NCBI RefSeq assembly: GCF_020515625.1
Contig: NZ_JAIWPJ010000001.1
Span: 992,001-1,056,000 of the forward strand
Direction of reading: 5' to 3'
Source of the DNA: Natrinema amylolyticum
GTDB lineage: Archaea > Halobacteriota > Halobacteria > Halobacteriales > Natrialbaceae
Length of the DNA stretch: 64,000 nucleotides
Below, one piece after another: positions 4,156 through 49,630 of this stretch. Each line of letters starts with the position of its first letter. Position 1 is the stretch's first letter. The notes under the pieces were generated by a model. The model did no database searches and was not told the origin of the DNA. It saw only the letters and a program-made list of their open reading frames with translations. Made by a program: the position numbers and the translations under genes.

Positions 4156-4686
4156 ATGTTGCCACCTGGACATGTTGCAGTCGGCTACTTGGCGTTCTCG
4201 CTCCTCCGACGGGCGTGGCACGGCGACGTCCCGTCAGATGTGTCGATACCGTGGCTCGTCGTCGGGTCGCAAGTACCGGACTTGATCGATAAACCGCTGG
4301 CCTGGTCGTTCGGTATCCTTTCGTCGAGTCGGTCGCTCGCTCACTCACTGCTATTTGCTGTCCCACTCGTGTTACTCGTCGATCACTGGCTCCGACGGCG
4401 TAACCGATCAGCCGCCGGCGAAGGGTTCGCCGTCGGGTACCTCTCACATCTCGCTACCGACGCGATACCGGCGCTCCGAGACGGACCCGAATGGGTGACC
4501 TTCCTGGTCTGGCCCCTGTTAGCGCCGCCGCAATACGCTTCGCGACCGCCGCTCTGGCCGCCCTCCGTCTACTTCAGTTCGGCCGAACTCGCGGTCGGAA
4601 TCGCCGTCGCCGTCCTCTGGATCGCCGACGGTCTGCCGGGGCTCGGATACGCTCAGTCCGTGCGCAATCGACTGTTGAACAGGTAA
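4156..4686 (+). CDS. YdjM/DUF457-like membrane protein
   Basis: A 176-residue polytopic membrane protein. The start at 4156 gives MLPPGHVAVGYL, the usual beginning of the YdjM (DUF457, metal-dependent hydrolase-like) family; the 49 codons upstream encode Arg-rich sequence with no family features. Conserved polar positions include GHVAVGYL, VPDLIDKPLAW, SLAHSLL and GYLSHLATDAIP, whose His and Asp residues may bind metal in the membrane. About four hydrophobic segments are visible. The biochemical role of the family is not established. It stands between surface-protein genes with no tight operon partner. An alternative reading is a small membrane phosphatase or hydrolase; the sequence cannot decide. 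Confidence 0.75.
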   Translation: MLPPGHVAVGYLAFSLLRRAWHGDVPSDVSIPWLVVGSQVPDLIDKPLAWSFGILSSSRSLAHSLLFAVPLVLLVDHWLRRRNRSAAGEGFAVGYLSHLATDAIPALRDGPEWVTFLVWPLLAPPQYASRPPLWPPSVYFSSAELAVGIAVAVLWIADGLPGLGYAQSVRNRLLNR

Positions 4687-4864
4687 CGGGTCTGCTGTGA
4701 CGGCCATGGTCCGATCAGTTTTCGTGATACTCGGCCCCGATCAGCGCTCTCCCGTGAGCTCTCGGGACACCCGTCGGAGGGACGACGGTTCCCTTGGGGG
4801 AAGACTCGACTGCTGATCGCGTAGAGGCGGTTGTGCCTCGGGACCGGAAGGACGCGATCGCCGA

Positions 4865-5584
4865 CTACGACTGATTCCGCTCGTCTTCGATATGCAACTT
4901 GTCCATGTAAGCGGTCATATCCTGGGGTGCGGGGTCCGTGTTCCCGTGATAGAAATTGCACCAGAACTCCTGAATACGAATGTCCTCCGTGTCGCGCCAG
5001 TGCCAGTCGTCACTGTTGTAGACGCGGTTCTGATTGACCCACCCTTGCAACACACCGTCGCTCTCACCCGGCGTGTTCAACTCGATGTACTGGTCGATTT
5101 TATACCAGCGTTCCGTCTCGAGGGACGTGTCCCACCACGCGTGCGACCCGTACGTGTCCATCCCGACGTGGTAGACGTAGTTTCCGATCCTGATATTTCC
5201 GTCGTCGTCCGGCGTATCGAAGACGCCGCGGGCCGACCACCCGTTCGTACCATCGGTCACCCGACTCCCCCACCCACCTTCCCGCTCCGTTCCTGCGTAC
5301 CGTCCGGCGAACCCGGGGAGTTTCCCGTCGGTCGCCGGCTGGAACGTCTCGTCGAGGTACAGCCAGTACGACGCATACATCGATTCCGGCTCCGTCTCCT
5401 CGAGGCCGTAACTGAGGTCCGCGCCGTAATGTGACCCCGACGGGAAGAACACTTCACACGCTGTGGAATCGGATTCGGAGTTCGATTCGGACGCGGGGCC
5501 CGCTTCGATCGACACGTGGTCATCGTGGAACCGCTCGGAAAACGATTCGAGTACGTTCTGTTCGTTGAACGAGATGAGGGTCAT
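4865..5584 (-). CDS. Polysaccharide-lyase-like protein, no signal peptide
   Basis: A 239-residue protein matching the C-terminal domain at 6025-7761 and the protein at 11664-12611. Shared blocks are GKLPGFAG, GGWG, DGTNGWSARG, GNYVYHVGMD, W-x-x-I-D-Q-Y-I-x-L-N-T-P-G and DGVLQGWVN. This layout (K-L-P-G, then G-W-S-A-R, then Y-V-Y-H) resembles concanavalin-type polysaccharide lyases of the PL14/PL20 kind, which cleave uronate-containing glycans. Unlike its two paralogues it starts almost directly with the domain and has no signal peptide; the frame is closed by a stop a few codons upstream of the ATG. It may be a 5'-truncated copy, or be exported otherwise. Substrate is unknown. It is divergent from the next gene. 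Confidence 0.65.
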   Translation of the reverse strand: MTLISFNEQNVLESFSERFHDDHVSIEAGPASESNSESDSTACEVFFPSGSHYGADLSYGLEETEPESMYASYWLYLDETFQPATDGKLPGFAGRYAGTEREGGWGSRVTDGTNGWSARGVFDTPDDDGNIRIGNYVYHVGMDTYGSHAWWDTSLETERWYKIDQYIELNTPGESDGVLQGWVNQNRVYNSDDWHWRDTEDIRIQEFWCNFYHGNTDPAPQDMTAYMDKLHIEDERNQS

Positions 5585-9891: not shown

Positions 9892-11016
9892 TCAGTCGTG
9901 GCGTAGTTCCGGGGAACGATCGGGGGAGTGTGAACGAGGAGACACCGCGCGCGGCCCGTAGTACGTCCGAAGATCCCGAATTAATTTCGTTACATCATCG
10001 TGATCCATCTCGGCGATCGGAAACGTGACGATGTTGTCGGCCAGGAATCGCGTCCCAGAATAGCGGTGTCGGGGGCCCGAATGCTCGGAGACGAGTCCCC
10101 ACGGTTCGTTCCAGATGGCTCGGACGCAATTGCCTCGAGATCTGAGGTATTCGATCAGTGCGTCGCGGTCCCCGGGGGCGGTCGCGGAAAGGACGTAGTG
10201 GACTCGTCCGGCGGTATCGGGCTGAACCTCGAAGCCGTACGTCTCGAGTACTCTCCGGAGGGAGGTCGCGATCGATCGGTGCTCCCCGAGCGCTCGCGGA
10301 AATTCCCGTCGAAGGTATCGATCGAAGAGCCACTGGTTGAGCGGGTCGAGTCGTCGGACGGACGGCTCCTCTCCACCGTTCAGGAGATACTGTTCGGTCT
10401 CCTGAGTGACGTAGTGTCTGTCACCGATGAGCCGGTCGTACGACGTCCTGATCCGTTCCTTGTGTGGAAGTTCCCCCGGAAGTACGGTGTACAGGAACTT
10501 CACGAACAGATCGATATTGATCGAGGGAGACGTTAGTTCGACTTCCGACTGGGACGGTGCGCTCGCGAGAACGCCACCGGTGAACAAGGGCGACACTTTC
10601 GACAGGGAAAAAATGGCGTAGTCACCGAACCCACCGACCGATCTGCCATCGCGCCGTGCACAGAGCGCCCTCGCGCAGTCTTCGATCAAGACGACGTCCT
10701 CCTCCCGACACCGGTCGACCCATCGCTCTATGGGGACTGGCAATCCGAACGCGTGGACAACCAACGCAGCGTCGACGTCTCGTAAGTGGGACTTCGCTCG
10801 ATCGAAATCGAGATGATACGTGTCCGTATCGACATCAACAAAGACGGGGTCTATCTCGTACCGTTCGCAAATCGGTCGAAGAAACGGTTCATCGATAAAC
10901 GCTGGAACGAGCACTTTCGACCCACTCAGAGACTCTCGTTGCACGATTTTCTCGAGTGCCGCACTTCCCGACACAGTATACGCGACTGAGCGGTTCGCTG
11001 GGAACGGGTCAACCAT
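9892..11016 (-). CDS. DegT/DnrJ/EryC1-type PLP aminotransferase-like enzyme
   Basis: A 374-residue member of the DegT/DnrJ/EryC1/StrS family. These PLP enzymes usually transfer an amino group to a keto-sugar nucleotide. Visible features are GSAALEKIV near the N-terminus, DVDTDTYHLD at 61-70, VVHAFGLPVP, IEDCARALCA at 111-120 (where the family usually has an Asp followed by Ala/His) and FSLSKVSPLFTGG with the likely PLP lysine K140. It would supply an amino sugar for the surface polymer. It lies 158 bases upstream of the carbamoyltransferase on the same strand, so they may be co-transcribed, although the carbamoyltransferase appears to have its own promoter. Some DegT members are dehydratases, so the reaction is uncertain. 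Confidence 0.8.
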   Translation of the reverse strand: MVDPFPANRSVAYTVSGSAALEKIVQRESLSGSKVLVPAFIDEPFLRPICERYEIDPVFVDVDTDTYHLDFDRAKSHLRDVDAALVVHAFGLPVPIERWVDRCREEDVVLIEDCARALCARRDGRSVGGFGDYAIFSLSKVSPLFTGGVLASAPSQSEVELTSPSINIDLFVKFLYTVLPGELPHKERIRTSYDRLIGDRHYVTQETEQYLLNGGEEPSVRRLDPLNQWLFDRYLRREFPRALGEHRSIATSLRRVLETYGFEVQPDTAGRVHYVLSATAPGDRDALIEYLRSRGNCVRAIWNEPWGLVSEHSGPRHRYSGTRFLADNIVTFPIAEMDHDDVTKLIRDLRTYYGPRAVSPRSHSPDRSPELRHD

Positions 11017-11663
11017 TCCATGAGAAAACGGAATCGATTAGGGATAAGTGACTGTGTTAGTACACAGTTATATAATAGCGAGAATGTCGTGAGAGAGAGT
11101 ACTAAAAACGTTCAGCCGAGGGTAAAGTGATAGTGAGCGGATAGTAGGTTCAGTTGCTACTTAGTAGCAGATATACTAAATCGCGTGCCAGAACTGATTT
11201 TGAAGCTGAGTTTCTAATACACTATTACCCCGACAGGACTACTGTGGGCGTCTTACGGCTTGAACCACGGCTTTCCTGAGGGGCTATCAGTTATCAGCCG
11301 CCAATGTCGTATAACTGACAACCGGTCCGCTCGATAGTCTTTGGAAATAGCAATAAGCTATTTATATCGGTAGTAGATTGTTGGAGTTCGAATCGAGGAC
11401 TCTGCCCGCAACAATGCTGATACTCAGAACTACAAGCGAAGTACTGTGTTATGATCAACTAACCAACAAATTTCGATGGGGCTTCGTACCCGTAAACGTG
11501 GAGTCTGGTTGTGCGCAACGAGGGAAAGTACTACCACCCTATGATACTTTTCCTATATAAAACATAGAACGAAACGAAATACCGGTTGAAGCGGGACAAT
11601 CGGTTTAATCGCTGAACAGTTAGTAGGGGCGGAGACGGAAGTATCCGGGCCCGATAAAATAGT
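11017..11663. other. AT-rich divergent gap of about 0.65 kb
   Basis: This region is clearly poorer in G+C than its flanks and holds no gene I can support. TATA-like patches occur, for example TATTTATAT near 11360. A 30-40 base segment around 11255-11290 recalls the ends of IS200/IS605-type elements, but no transposase remains. The AT-rich character and lack of genes suggest a scar of past rearrangement. Confidence 0.4.
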
Positions 11664-14137: not shown

Positions 14138-15315
14138 GCGACACGCGAAAATCACCGACGGCGTCTCAGATACGTCGGAACGACCACCGGCGAAGCGAAT
14201 CGAAAGGTCACGTCGCCGTCTTTCAAACCGCGATGGAAATCGGCGGGATCGAACGAGTGTTGCTCAATCTGATCCAGGAGTTGGACGATCGCGGATATAC
14301 CGTCGACCTGGTGCTCACTCGATCGGAGGGTGAGTTCCTGTCCGAAGTTCCCGATGCGGTCAGTATCGTCGATCTCGATCCGACAGCCGTCCCCGGAGTC
14401 GGCGTTTTCTCGGCCGTCCCGTCACTGATCCGCTATCTTCGCCGAGCGGAACCTGAAGCGCTTCTCTCGGGGAAACCGCACACGAACCTCGTTGCGCTCA
14501 TCGCTAGTCGCCTCTCGGGAGTGGAGATACGAACGATACTCGGCCTCAACGCGATGCTCTCGCATCACTTAGAAACTACGGATACGCTGAAATACCGTAC
14601 AATTATACTGCTCTCGAAGTACCTGTATCGGTTCGCCGACGAAATCGTCGTCGCCTCCGAGGGATCGAAGATGGACGCCGCGACTGTCCTCGAGATGCCG
14701 ATGGACACGATGCGGGTGATACACAATCCGGTCGTGACACCACGGTTGTTAGAACGGGCGGACGAGCCCCTCGATCACCCGTGGTTCAGTGACGACGCCC
14801 CCCCTGTCGTGCTGAGCGTTGGTCGTCTCCACCCGCATAAGGACTACGCGAACCTCATACGTGCGTTTGCACGAGTGCGGGCGACCAGGGACGCCAAACT
14901 CGTCATTATCGGTGAAGGCGATCGGAGGGACCAGTTGACAGCGCTCGTCGAGGAGCTCGGCCTCGAAGATGACGTCTCGCTTCCCGGTAGCGAGACGAAC
15001 CCGTATCCGTACATGCGACGGGCATCGGTTTTCGCTCTCTCTTCGATCACCGAAGCGCTGCCGTTAGCGCTGATCGAGGCGATGGCCTGTACGTGTCCGG
15101 TCATAGCGACCGACTGCTCGAGCGGACCGGTTGAAATCCTCGACGGGGGTCGGGTCGGTCCGCTAGTTCCACCGAACGATCCCGACGCGCTCGCTGAGGC
15201 GATCATCGATACGCTGGACGATCCCCCCGACGAAGCGATACTGCGCGAGCGAGCGATGGACTTCTCGGTAGCGACGATCGCGGACGAGTACGAGCAGGCG
15301 TTGTTCCCGGAGTAG
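14134..15315 (+). CDS. GT4-type glycosyltransferase (second of pair)
   Basis: A 393-residue GT4 glycosyltransferase. After a polar N-terminal tail of about 25 residues, the acceptor domain has the glycine-rich FQTAMEIGGIERVLLNLIQ. The donor domain has VLSVGRLHPHKDYANLIRAF, LVIIGEGDRRDQL, SLPGSETNPYPYMRRASVF and SSITEALPLALIEAMACTCPVIATD, which includes an intact E-x7-E. The resemblance is to polymer-synthesis enzymes that recognise N-acetylhexosamines, but donor and linkage cannot be read from sequence. Coupled to the preceding glycosyltransferase through a 4-base overlap, it probably adds the next sugar on the same chain. Confidence 0.88.
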   Translation: MSDTRKSPTASQIRRNDHRRSESKGHVAVFQTAMEIGGIERVLLNLIQELDDRGYTVDLVLTRSEGEFLSEVPDAVSIVDLDPTAVPGVGVFSAVPSLIRYLRRAEPEALLSGKPHTNLVALIASRLSGVEIRTILGLNAMLSHHLETTDTLKYRTIILLSKYLYRFADEIVVASEGSKMDAATVLEMPMDTMRVIHNPVVTPRLLERADEPLDHPWFSDDAPPVVLSVGRLHPHKDYANLIRAFARVRATRDAKLVIIGEGDRRDQLTALVEELGLEDDVSLPGSETNPYPYMRRASVFALSSITEALPLALIEAMACTCPVIATDCSSGPVEILDGGRVGPLVPPNDPDALAEAIIDTLDDPPDEAILRERAMDFSVATIADEYEQALFPE

Positions 15316-46593: not shown

Positions 46594-46624
46594 GTAGTGG
46601 GTTGGAGCAGATTTGAACTGCCGG
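46594..46624. repeat. Left attachment repeat of the integrated element
   Basis: A 31-base exact copy of 49552-49582, which covers the 3' end of tRNA-Val. After one missing base the match continues for eight more. It marks the outer end of the integrated element, next to the integrase gene. Confidence 0.88.
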
Positions 46625-46681
46625 CTCCTCCACACCGTTCAAAGCGATTGTAACCGATTGGACTCCACCAACCAGTCCAAC

Positions 46682-47692
46682 ATGGCAAACATTGAAGAAA
46701 CGCCGAGAGCGGTCGTAGAACAGTTTCAGAAGGAGCGAGAGCATGAAGTACGGGAAAGTACTCTCATCAATCAGAAGTACCACCTCCGTTCCTTTATCGA
46801 ATGGACAGAGGAAACTGGACTCGAACAAATCGGGGCTCTGAATGGATTTATACTGAATCAATATAAGACATGGAGAAGAGAGAATTCAGAAATCAATGAA
46901 CAGACGCTCTACAATAATCTAACCACATTACGTGCCTTACTCGGATGGTGTGAGCAACGAGAATTGGTAGAAGAAGGTCTGACTGAAAAGCTGGATATTC
47001 CTAAGCCAGAGAATCCGGTCAAAAATGAGACAATCGCACCCGAGCGAGCAAATCAGATTTTAGAGTACTATCATCGGTTCGAATATGCCTCTCGTGACCA
47101 TGTCTTGTTCTATCTTCTCTATCACACGGGAATGAGAGTTGGTACTGTCCATGCGTTAGATGTGGGTGATTGGGAGTCAGAAGAAGGGTTACTACATATT
47201 CGACACCGTCCAGAGCAAGGTACACCGCTCAAGAACGGAAAAGATGGACAGCGAGCTGTGGCTATCTCCAAAGATGGTCTTATAACTGCTCTTTCAGACT
47301 ATATCCGACACAACCGACTCGAGAAGGTAGATGAGAACGACCGGAAGCCCCTCTTTCCTACTAGACAGGGGAGGGCTTCGACACAAACACTTCGACTGTA
47401 TGTAGAACATCTCAGCGAACCTTGCCAATATACTGGAGAATGCCCCCATGGGAAGGATTTAGAATCATGTGACGCACGCCGAAAAATGCGAGACTCATAT
47501 GAGTGCCCATCGGCAGTAAGTCCTCACCCAATTCGGCGGAGTGCGATAACAGACCATCTGAATTCAGATGTACCAAAGGATGTGGTTTCTGACCGCATGA
47601 ACGTAAGCCAGAAAGTGCTGGATAAGCACTATGATGCAAGGACAGAAGAAGAAAAAGCGAATACACGGAAGCAATACCTTGACAACATATGA
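46682..47692 (+). CDS. Tyrosine-type site-specific integrase
   Basis: A 336-residue tyrosine recombinase. The ATG at 46682 (MANIEETPRAVVEQFQKERE) begins the SAM-like core-binding domain; the frame stays open back into the attachment repeat but those codons are not family-like. The catalytic part has Arg in YHTGMRVGTVHALDVGDW, a likely Lys in GTPLKNGKDGQRAVAIS, His-x2-Arg in SPHPIRRSAITDHLNSD and the nucleophile Tyr in VLDKHYDARTEEEK. Cys and His residues in CQYTGECPHGKDLESCD and DSYECPSAVSPH suggest a zinc-binding insert typical of haloarchaeal integrases. It would catalyse recombination at tRNA-Val. The gene reads away from the left repeat. Confidence 0.92.
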   Translation: MANIEETPRAVVEQFQKEREHEVRESTLINQKYHLRSFIEWTEETGLEQIGALNGFILNQYKTWRRENSEINEQTLYNNLTTLRALLGWCEQRELVEEGLTEKLDIPKPENPVKNETIAPERANQILEYYHRFEYASRDHVLFYLLYHTGMRVGTVHALDVGDWESEEGLLHIRHRPEQGTPLKNGKDGQRAVAISKDGLITALSDYIRHNRLEKVDENDRKPLFPTRQGRASTQTLRLYVEHLSEPCQYTGECPHGKDLESCDARRKMRDSYECPSAVSPHPIRRSAITDHLNSDVPKDVVSDRMNVSQKVLDKHYDARTEEEKANTRKQYLDNI

Positions 47693-47973
47693 AATGAAGG
47701 ATTGGTAAGGAATAGTCATAAAACTACCAATTCAGTTCCTTTATCCGACGAGAAGGGAAATCGTTAATCTTGTAACCATATGTTCTCCCACCAATAATTA
47801 TTATTGGTGATAACTTATATGGTTCTCTAATATCCTTTTGCGGAGGACTTATTTAAGAAGCGTCAGTCGCTCTCGCTCCCTCCGCTTCCCGTCGAATAAG
47901 TTGACTTAATGAAGGTTCTGCAAGTAAGGATTCTTCTTCATTGCTGCCTTCACTTATAAGAATGCAATAGGGT
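47693..47973. other. Convergent gap in the element, mostly a compound dyad
   Basis: A 281-base AT-rich stretch between the convergent integrase and cyclin-like genes. Its main feature is the symmetric dyad at 47774-47824. No gene is seen. A GGGTTTATATACCC block overlaps the end of the next gene. Confidence 0.45.
47774..47824. promoter_or_regulatory. Compound symmetric dyad in the element
   Basis: An inner palindrome has 10-base arms CACCAATAAT (47789-47798) and ATTATTGGTG (47800-47809) around one central base. An outer pair AACCATAT (47774-47781) and ATATGGTT (47817-47824) lies exactly seven bases beyond it on both sides. The symmetry about 47799 is complete. It suits an operator or origin bound by dimers, or a bidirectional terminator for the two converging genes. 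Confidence 0.6.
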
Positions 47974-48618
47974 TTATATACCCCCTCTATCTTGCCACCG
48001 GTTTTCGAACGATCGATAATTCCTATCTCTGATACGGTCTCTATATGACTGCTGTTCTAATTTAGCATACTGGCGTTGTATCTCACTTTCACACAAATCA
48101 ATACTCTCTGCTATATCTGAAAAGAGACTATCCTGATGTTCCTTTCTCTGATTATAGTGGTACGTGCGATTAGTATCATCTCTATGTACAGAAAGGGCAC
48201 AGACGCAAAATGCTACAAGTTCAGCCTTGACACCACAGGTTTGGAGATCAATCTCCATGAACCATCGGTAGGATCTCTCACATTGCTTCTTTGTGAGATC
48301 TAACTGTGCCGATAGGGATTTAATCAAGTGGCTATTAAGTTGGTATGTGATGTATTCTTCATTATTCCATTTTAGATTCTGTATTCCTGAATTATAAGCG
48401 TCTAGATGTTTGTATTTCTCTGAATTGTAAGAGTTAGAATTTACATTAGATATGTCGTGAATGCGGGTAGCATTGTTAGTATCTGGTTTTGTTAGAGAAT
48501 ATTCCAATAATTCTATCAATTCAGTGTTGGTGAGCCATGGTCTATTTTGTTTCGCAGACCAATCACTAAAGGTCTGGACTTTTTCTTTTGGTCTTTGCGC
48601 ATTAGAGGCCATTGTCAT
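47974..48618 (-). CDS. Element protein with possible TFB/cyclin-like fold
   Basis: A 214-residue protein of unknown function encoded by the element. An alternative ATG lies two codons in. Residues about 1-90 are polar and Asn-rich with repeated NSNSYNSEKYKH-type sequence. From about 95 the pattern LIKSLSAQLDLTKKQCERSY, WFMEIDLQTCGVKAELVAFC, VCALSVHRDDTNRTYHYNQR and DSLFSDIAESIDLCESEIQR, then QYAKLEQQ, looks like the second cyclin repeat and end helix of archaeal TFB: helices, an AAA-like hydrophobic helix, then an Ile-Ala-Glu and Glu-x-Glu-Ile-x-x-x-Tyr ending. No zinc ribbon is seen. A regulator of element transcription or replication is possible. The similarity is faint and made by eye. Confidence 0.55.
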   Translation of the reverse strand: MTMASNAQRPKEKVQTFSDWSAKQNRPWLTNTELIELLEYSLTKPDTNNATRIHDISNVNSNSYNSEKYKHLDAYNSGIQNLKWNNEEYITYQLNSHLIKSLSAQLDLTKKQCERSYRWFMEIDLQTCGVKAELVAFCVCALSVHRDDTNRTYHYNQRKEHQDSLFSDIAESIDLCESEIQRQYAKLEQQSYRDRIRDRNYRSFENRWQDRGGI

Positions 48619-48673
48619 GATGCAAGAGGGAGAAATAGATGGCTCTCCAAAGTGGATCGCCTAACGCAAAATT

Positions 48674-48694
48674 CCCTCTCTTACAAAGAGAGGG
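48674..48694. repeat. Strong hairpin upstream of the cyclin-like gene
   Basis: Arms CCCTCTCTT (48674-48682) and AAGAGAGGG (48686-48694) are perfect and separated by three bases. It lies about 55 bases ahead of the minus-strand gene start, inside its likely leader or promoter, so an operator or leader structure is plausible. A second CCCTCT on the minus strand occurs about 50 bases further downstream. Confidence 0.55.
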
Positions 48695-48850
48695 TATCAA
48701 CTTAACATCTTTGATATCTCTGGAGCCAGTGACAAAATCTGATTATTTTCTAGAGGGGTTACTTACACTCATACGTTTTCGAATTCGCTCAATGTTCCAA
48801 CCCTCCACTGCCTTCTCGTCAAATGAAGGACACCTATACATATTATCATT

Positions 48851-48860
48851 AAATATATAT
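48851..48860 (+). promoter_or_regulatory. TATA box for the element membrane protein
   Basis: AAATATATAT is centred about 27 bases upstream of the ATG at 48883, exactly the spacing for a leaderless archaeal transcript. Confidence 0.6.
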
Positions 48861-48882
48861 TCCTAAGAACTTCAGAAATGGT

Positions 48883-49236
48883 ATGGTCTCCGCAAAAAAG
48901 GCAGGAATTGCATTTTGGTTTAAGGCGTTTGGTATTAGTCTAGTTTTCTCTTTCCTTATTGGTCCACTCATCTCCTCTGGAAACTTTGTACTAGTGTATT
49001 TAACAAGTGCTGTGGCCGGCCTTTCCATTGTAATAATACTGTTTAGAGATATAGAGAAATTCACTAAAAAGCTCATTTCGGAGTCACGGGCTAAGGAACC
49101 AAGTCGGAAGACTGACTCGAATTGGAAAGGCGGTACAAATTCTGGAAATACTTCGGAAGACGGCTGGTACAAAGATGGAAGCCAAGAAGATGCAAAGGAA
49201 ACATACGAAGAAGCCACTTCTGGAAATAAGAGCTAG
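48883..49236 (+). CDS. Element small membrane protein
   Basis: A 117-residue protein with two hydrophobic helices at about 10-31 (AFWFKAFGISLVFSFLIGPL) and 34-54 (FVLVYLTSAVAGLSIVIILF), followed by a polar Lys/Glu/Ser/Asn-rich tail of about 60 residues. The ATG at 48883 is placed about 27 bases after a TATA box, which supports both the gene and the leaderless start. The tail is less acidic than host proteins, in keeping with foreign origin. No family is recognised. Its position next to the tRNA end resembles small envelope or maintenance proteins of haloarchaeal mobile elements, but no function can be assigned. Confidence 0.7.
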   Translation: MVSAKKAGIAFWFKAFGISLVFSFLIGPLISSGNFVLVYLTSAVAGLSIVIILFRDIEKFTKKLISESRAKEPSRKTDSNWKGGTNSGNTSEDGWYKDGSQEDAKETYEEATSGNKS

Positions 49237-49551
49237 TGCGATCGAAGTATAATGTGACCTATTGATAGAGTTGCCCTGTTTTTCCTGTACTGATAGAAGA
49301 GAGGTCTAAGACCATAGTATACCTAAGAAGGGAGATGCTGCCTGTTATGCCTACTCTTTTATTTTGCCCTCTTCTAGTATAGGGGAGTAAATATATATGG
49401 CTACAATCTAACTTCCTATTTGGATCTAATCGGTAGCACTCGCTGGGGATGGTTGCTTCCCGCAATGAATTGAGAGCAAAAACTCCGATCTCAGAGGGGA
49501 ATCTTAGGAAAAAGTCCCCTCCGTAATGCGGTTCACACGACCGGAGGGAGT
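49237..49551. other. Right end of the element, no gene
   Basis: A 315-base AT-rich stretch. Frames are short. A TATA-like AAATATATAT near 49389 has no coding frame after it. The right part contains the terminator of tRNA-Val. Confidence 0.4.
49508..49550 (-). terminator. Terminator downstream of tRNA-Val
   Basis: On the minus strand, arms built on CTCCG and CGGAGGG around an 18-base loop are followed by TTTTT (49510-49514 on the plus strand reads A). It lies directly after the tRNA 3' end, in element DNA, so the element appears to bring its own terminator for the tRNA. Confidence 0.5.
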
Positions 49552-49582
49552 GTAGTGGGTTGGAGCAGATTTGAACTGCCGG
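49552..49582. repeat. Right attachment repeat within tRNA-Val
   Basis: The 31-base copy of the left repeat. It covers the acceptor and T-arm half of tRNA-Val plus four bases beyond, so the tRNA stays functional after integration. Confidence 0.88.
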
Positions 49583-49630
49583 CCTCCTCCATGTCAAGGA
49601 GGTGTCGTAACCAGACTAGACCACCAACCC
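49556..49630 (-). tRNA. tRNA-Val(GAC)
   Basis: On the minus strand the 75-base gene folds as a complete cloverleaf: acceptor arms GGGTTGG and CCAACCC with discriminator A, an anticodon stem CCTCC/GGAGG around TTGACAT with anticodon GAC, and a T-loop TTCAAAT. It reads the Val codon GUC. CCA is not encoded. Its 3' half is the attachment site of the integrated element. Confidence 0.95.

Follow-up and report, generated by a model that had tools for sequence, protein, structure and literature searches.

A three-gene integrative element of Natrinema amylolyticum and a probable family of haloarchaeal mini-elements with an RNA polymerase epsilon-like core protein

A 64,000-nucleotide stretch of the Natrinema amylolyticum genome (contig NZ_JAIWPJ010000001.1, positions 992,001 to 1,056,000), called here the window, contains an AT-rich insert of 2,958 bp, measured from repeat start to repeat start, in the gene of tRNA-Val(GAC). 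The insert contains three genes, which encode a tyrosine integrase (int) and two products of open reading frames (ORFs), ORF2 and ORF3. The data suggest that this element is probably the smallest intact member of a previously unrecognized family of haloarchaeal mini-integrative elements, 3–14 kb long, with a core protein, ORF2, that would be associated with RNA polymerase, and that the element is probably moved by a helper.

The insert is bounded by direct repeats, both read on the minus strand, which are exact across 32 nt (46594–46625 and 49552–49583), and by chance only ~7e-13 such 32-mer pairs would be expected in 5 kb. The right, tRNA-proximal copy of this attachment site (att) forms the 3′ end of the target gene, an intact tRNA-Val(GAC) (49555–49630, minus strand) with an Rfam tRNA score of 60 bits. 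The distal copy repeats the tRNA 3′ end plus 3 nt, and its outer flank is homologous to the flank downstream from tRNA-Val in congeners. The guanine-cytosine (GC) content is 0.37–0.48 inside the insert versus 0.62–0.72 outside. In congeneric species the flanks are 77–92% identical and the element is absent; in three of these genomes (G015, G025, and G014) the homologous flank comes within ~0.3–1.0 kb after the same tRNA-Val. Integrative elements that target tRNA genes are recognized by direct repeats, one of which lies at the 3′ end of the tRNA, an integrase gene inside, and unoccupied sites in relatives, and all three features were found for this insert. These observations agree with the preliminary description of the window, which proposed a very small integrative element at tRNA-Val made of AT-rich foreign DNA with an intact tyrosine integrase and only two further genes; the repeats, described there as exact over 31 bases, are indeed exact, and their length is 32 nt. 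In the same three congeners the tRNA is followed by ~120–140 bp, then a second att copy, which is exact or partly degraded, and then the shared flank (the stretch before the second copy is at about 4652–4796 in locus L045, and downstream from tRNA-Val in L048 and L049). This arrangement looks like a relic of an older occupant of the site.

The integrase gene (46682–47692, plus strand) encodes an intact protein of 336 amino acids, which matches PF00589 (E 1.8e-13) and phrog_1, and in which the catalytic residues R...HxxR...HY are present. Members of the SNJ2 family of tyrosine integrases have been defined by a catalytic Phage_integrase domain and an identity to other members of 30% or more across 60% of the protein (PMC8371274). 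The window protein has this domain and is 39% identical to the integrase of SNJ2 and 42% to that of HHPV4 over 98%, which places it in the SNJ2 family. A family-wide integrase search returned nothing closer than ~48% identity, and no match at E ≤ 1e-100 in 124 other species; a paralogue in the same genome is 47% identical. Also in this genome, a 1.83-kb unit between 28-nt repeats is present at tRNA-Val(CAC) (L042, 8105–9964; G000:C1 near 331–333 kb). It contains the closest paralogue of the integrase (46%–47% identity) and one short ORF, and is an even smaller, probably decayed element. The low-GC stretches found at the same tRNA-Val(GAC) site in two other genomes, G010 and G008, contain unrelated genes and no SNJ2-type integrase.

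Relatives of ORF2 (47974–48618, minus strand; 214 amino acids) were found by sequence search in 11 other genomes of 100, and strong matches to an ORF2 profile were found in about 35–40 of 392 sampled genomes of the order. When 18–19 kb were read around 29 strong ORF2 loci, 22 of them had ORF2 alongside a tyrosine integrase and/or between tRNA-derived repeats, in elements of 3–14 kb. Such elements were located at tRNA-Lys (3.7 kb; L031), at tRNA-Thr (4.3–11.3 kb; L034, L083, L086, L041, L084, L090, L035, and L038), at tRNA-Ala (4.4–6.2 kb; L085, L087, L033, L039, and L100), and at tRNA-Glu and tRNA-Leu (8.5–14 kb; L091, L093, and L092), the integrase of the last group being different or not recognized. 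Clustering of the genes of the 22 elements gave only two widely shared families, int with 23 members and ORF2 with 20, the next largest having 4. The int gene begins beside the distal att, ORF2 is usually nearer the tRNA end, and the two genes are convergent in 13 of the 16 repeat-bounded elements tallied. This order implies that in the excised circle ORF2 and int would flank attP and point away from it, with the cargo on the opposite side. The Int+ORF2 mini-element family is defined here by an SNJ2-type int by the distal att and an ORF2 homologue within a tRNA-bounded element. Both are found in the window element, which is the smallest with both core genes, as the other ORF2-bearing members have 3.7–14 kb. 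At one tRNA-Ala (L039), where three att copies (5050–5086, 10982–11017, and 14587–14623) and more than one integrase are present, two elements have accreted in tandem. Iterons or motifs shared between ORF2 and att were few beyond the relatedness among close elements; in the window, an imperfect palindrome with 25-nt arms, 76% complementary, is located between int and ORF2 (47774–47824) and is a candidate terminator or control site.

Just inside the element from the distal repeat, 53 nt (46626–46678, minus strand) resemble the 5′ half of tRNA-Val (z 5.3 versus dinucleotide shuffles) without an Rfam tRNA match. This decayed tRNA half next to att suggests that some attP sites seem to have captured a whole tRNA gene, which later decayed outside the repeat. 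A likeness to the 5′ half of their own target tRNA was also seen at the att of L031, L035, and L090 (z 5.0–7.2), and is not present in most other elements. The "tRNA-Gln" called by ARAGORN at 46597–46678 was rejected, as it is composed of the distal repeat and the decayed half, and Rfam gives it no tRNA score.

The cargo varies across the family and often consists of defence genes. In sister elements it includes a SoFic protein (PADLOC 2e-113), a SIR2 defence protein (PDC-S65, 4e-185) adjoining a protein kinase, Eco57I/type IIG restriction-methylation proteins, Mrr/type IV restriction proteins, HNH nucleases, and a CARF protein (CARF3, 3.8e-84). Replication families were not found in this cargo among the 25 of 47 Pfam families looked at. 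The elements L085 and L087 are 87.6% and 90.9% identical in their two ends, which include ORF2 and int, while their middles differ, with an HNH nuclease in one and SoFic in the other. L034 and L083 have only int (89%) and a short stretch at the tRNA end in common, and differ in ORF2 DNA and in cargo. These two comparisons show modular exchange. In the window element, ORF3 (48883–49236, plus strand; 117 amino acids) is a predicted membrane protein with a hydrophobic N-terminal half and a polar tail, and no homologues of it were found in 100 genomes, phages, plasmids, or other collections searched. ORF3 is probably cargo, because it is the only gene left for this variable role, and by analogy with the habits of the family it may be an antiviral or host-protecting effector. 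A 75-amino-acid ORF at 48639–48866 was rejected as a gene, because it overlaps the region upstream of ORF2 and matches nothing.

The ORF2 protein matches phrog_12649 (E 1e-27), and its profile weakly detects a chromosomal protein of 240–350 amino acids, which is present in well over 100 genomes, mostly once per genome. The closest of its annotated copies bear the name DNA-directed RNA polymerase subunit epsilon. The profile–profile comparison of ORF2 proteins with epsilon using hhalign gave an E-value of 8e-11 over 144 columns, the N-terminal (D/P)T..AT motif included, and the E-values of control comparisons against epsilon (reversed, column-shuffled, and integrase profiles) were 0.1–1. Sequence homology over the conserved core thus places ORF2 in the RNA polymerase epsilon superfamily, and by this comparison it is a distant homologue of the haloarchaeal subunit. 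According to a review of open haloarchaeal annotation issues, native templates are transcribed efficiently by polymerase that contains epsilon, while the biological relevance of this subunit is enigmatic (PMC8305020). The simplest reading is that ORF2 would act on transcription via the polymerase. Homologues of ORF2 were not found on plasmids. Haloarchaeal plasmids with divergent epsilon paralogues that bear a long C-terminal extension were observed (L129, 750–1664; L130, 2228–3289), one of them two genes away from a recombinase gene.

ORF2 and its virus homologue, modeled with AlphaFold from overlapping alignments, showed a helical core with a predicted local distance difference test (pLDDT) score of about 90 (about 89 for the ORF2 core), and the best PDB matches of this core in a fold search were TFIIB core domains and cyclins. 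The best Foldseek match of ORF2 was TFIIB, with a probability of 1.00 and a weak E-value of 0.06, and the VIA Z of up to 11 over residues 82–196 is lower than what can be trusted for helical folds. Hence, a cyclin/TFIIB-like fold, with the five-helix cyclin box as its mark, is likely for the modeled protein, not proven, because matches between helical proteins arise readily and the E-values from Foldseek are poor. Proteins of the TFIIB/TFB group have two cyclin repeats and a Zn ribbon and match PF00382, while ORF2 gave no match to PF00382 and its model shows a single cyclin-like unit, which places it outside this group. Because ORF2, when compared directly by hidden Markov models (HMMs) with a small number of TFB repeats, gave no significant match (P 0.12), the tie of ORF2 to TFB is one of fold only.

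Homologues of ORF2 are also present in 53 annotated haloviral records, and those that were read are Hafunaviridae-type tailed viruses, with 23%–37% identity. There the homologue was observed directly before an ERCC4-type nuclease gene (L051, 3980–4983; L052, 3992–4932), and the two genes are possibly a conserved pair in Hafunaviridae. Family and profile searches found no recognizable replication, particle, or transfer genes among the three genes of the window element, in agreement with the preliminary description as to the first two; the spike, membrane, and replication genes of a pleolipovirus provirus are not among them, and neither ORF2 nor ORF3 gave a primase-like match. As an element without such genes needs help to move, its dependence as a satellite on a helper virus or plasmid, which the preliminary description suggested, is plausible by analogy. 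It is possible, though we hold it only tentatively, that the element is a true satellite of Hafunaviridae tailed viruses, in which case helper infection would induce excision, the virus would replicate and package the element, and the shared ORF2 would couple it to the viral transcription programme. The virus homologues beside the nuclease gene and the lack of replication or particle genes are consistent with this explanation, as are the defence cargo of the relatives and the similarly minimal PICMIs, which are bacterial satellites of virulent phages with defence genes, a primase, and a shown helper (PMC10803314). On the other hand, a PICMI-type satellite combines its integrase with excision and replication genes that include the primase, a combination that the window element does not have; no shared packaging or origin sequence was identified, and a single shared gene is weak evidence.

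The co-occurrence of ORF2 with int, and its predicted place flanking attP in the circle, could alternatively be explained if ORF2 were an excisionase or integrase cofactor (a recombination directionality factor) and not a transcription protein. SNJ2 has two integrase helper proteins, one of them MarR-like (PMC8371274), which is consistent with such a role. This explanation is nevertheless unlikely, because tailed viruses have ORF2 as well, in one case near an integrase and in another with none in the stretch read, because ORF2 also accompanies a second integrase type in L091 and L093, and because its homology is to a polymerase subunit.

The preliminary description held that homologues confined to larger elements would mean a deletion remnant. 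For ORF2 this is formally the case, because every other ORF2-bearing member is larger. A remnant of a larger provirus or plasmid, which kept int and two neighbours, would also agree with the decay seen in the 1.83-kb unit of L042 and in the att relics of the congeners, and with the decayed tRNA half in attP. However, the two repeats do not differ at any of their 32 nt, neither int nor ORF2 is interrupted and each agrees with the conserved core, and in relatives from other families this core is accompanied by small, unrelated cargo genes instead of viral ones. The larger members have nothing in common but int and ORF2, which are both intact in the window element, and otherwise consist of cargo that varies. 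Hence, the window element is better explained as a minimal member of the mini-element family, perhaps poor in cargo, than as a virus stump, and we consider the remnant explanation improbable. A replication initiator of the excised circle is a very improbable role for ORF2, because, although a mobile circle is expected to have some replication activity and ORF2 is the only other conserved gene, ORF2 bears no signature of a nuclease, helicase, or primase, a conserved iteron array was not found next to it, and its homology to epsilon and cyclin-like fold point elsewhere.

Several observations weigh against the proposed mini-element family and its polymerase-associated core. Seven of the 29 ORF2 loci were not placed within elements, a different integrase type accompanies ORF2 in L091 and L093, the two core genes are not convergent in 3 of the 16 elements, and ORF3 is an orphan. 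The function of ORF2 is drawn from distant homology, its tie to TFIIB is by fold with Foldseek E-values of 0.06 and above and PF00382 unmatched, and the relevance of epsilon is itself described as enigmatic (PMC8305020). Circularization and transfer of the element are predictions from its genes and repeats.

If the mini-element family is as proposed, the integrase would recombine attP with the 3′ part of the tRNA gene and so rebuild the tRNA. ORF2, as a probable cyclin-fold relative of epsilon, would bind the host polymerase and turn on the promoters of the element, perhaps also those of a co-infecting virus, when conditions favour excision. Lacking its own genes for transfer, replication, or particles, the element would then travel in the particles of a helper or by other host DNA transfer, and the small membrane protein ORF3 would fill the variable-cargo role and may protect the host as an effector. 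A more speculative and rather doubtful extension is that a distinct haloarchaeal class of ultra-small satellite-like elements is defined by an integrase and a captured epsilon paralogue, which, by reprogramming transcription of the host or of a virus, would set off excision and hitchhiking, and that these elements would spread swappable antiviral genes; cellular epsilon and the mobile and viral ORF2 proteins would then be one superfamily at the virus–host transcription interface.

Haloarchaea commonly have very small islands integrated at tRNA genes, whose genes lack annotation and whose mobility core was not previously defined in the literature searched. The two-gene core together with cargo swapping can serve to locate islands of this kind along with the defence genes in them. 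The unexpected part is the core protein and its kinship with the enigmatic host polymerase subunit, which makes the role of the core protein testable, as polymerase binding and promoter use can be measured side by side for the mobile, viral, and cellular forms.

Among known systems, the integrase-bearing low-GC islands of Halorubrum ezzemoulense share with the window element a GC content of 40%–55%, an integrase, unannotated proteins and, in some, restriction-modification genes, while the available part of their description mentions no conserved two-gene core or epsilon-like protein (PMC11078007). PICMI, PICI, and P4-like satellites resemble it in being minimal in size, in having an integrase and no transfer genes, and in the defence cargo that varies within the family; the window element differs from them in being archaeal, in having no primase or packaging genes, in its polymerase-epsilon-like core gene, and in that its helper is putative. 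The integrative pleolipoviruses SNJ2, HHPV4, and HRPV9 share the integrase family (38%–42% identity), the classical tRNA targeting, and the location of int at one end by att. However, SNJ2-type pleolipoviruses have 15–17 kb with replication and structural genes, unlike the 3-kb window element, and the att of SNJ2 is 13 bp versus 32 bp here. The phrog_12649 proteins of Hafunaviridae tailed viruses belong to the same protein family as ORF2, but are located by an ERCC4-type nuclease gene in viruses of 68–78 kb, while ORF2 is part of a 3-kb element. Finally, epsilon (rpoeps) shares with ORF2 the homologous core with its N-terminal motif, but it is a longer chromosomal protein with mostly one locus per genome, while ORF2 is shorter, divergent, and carried on mobile elements.

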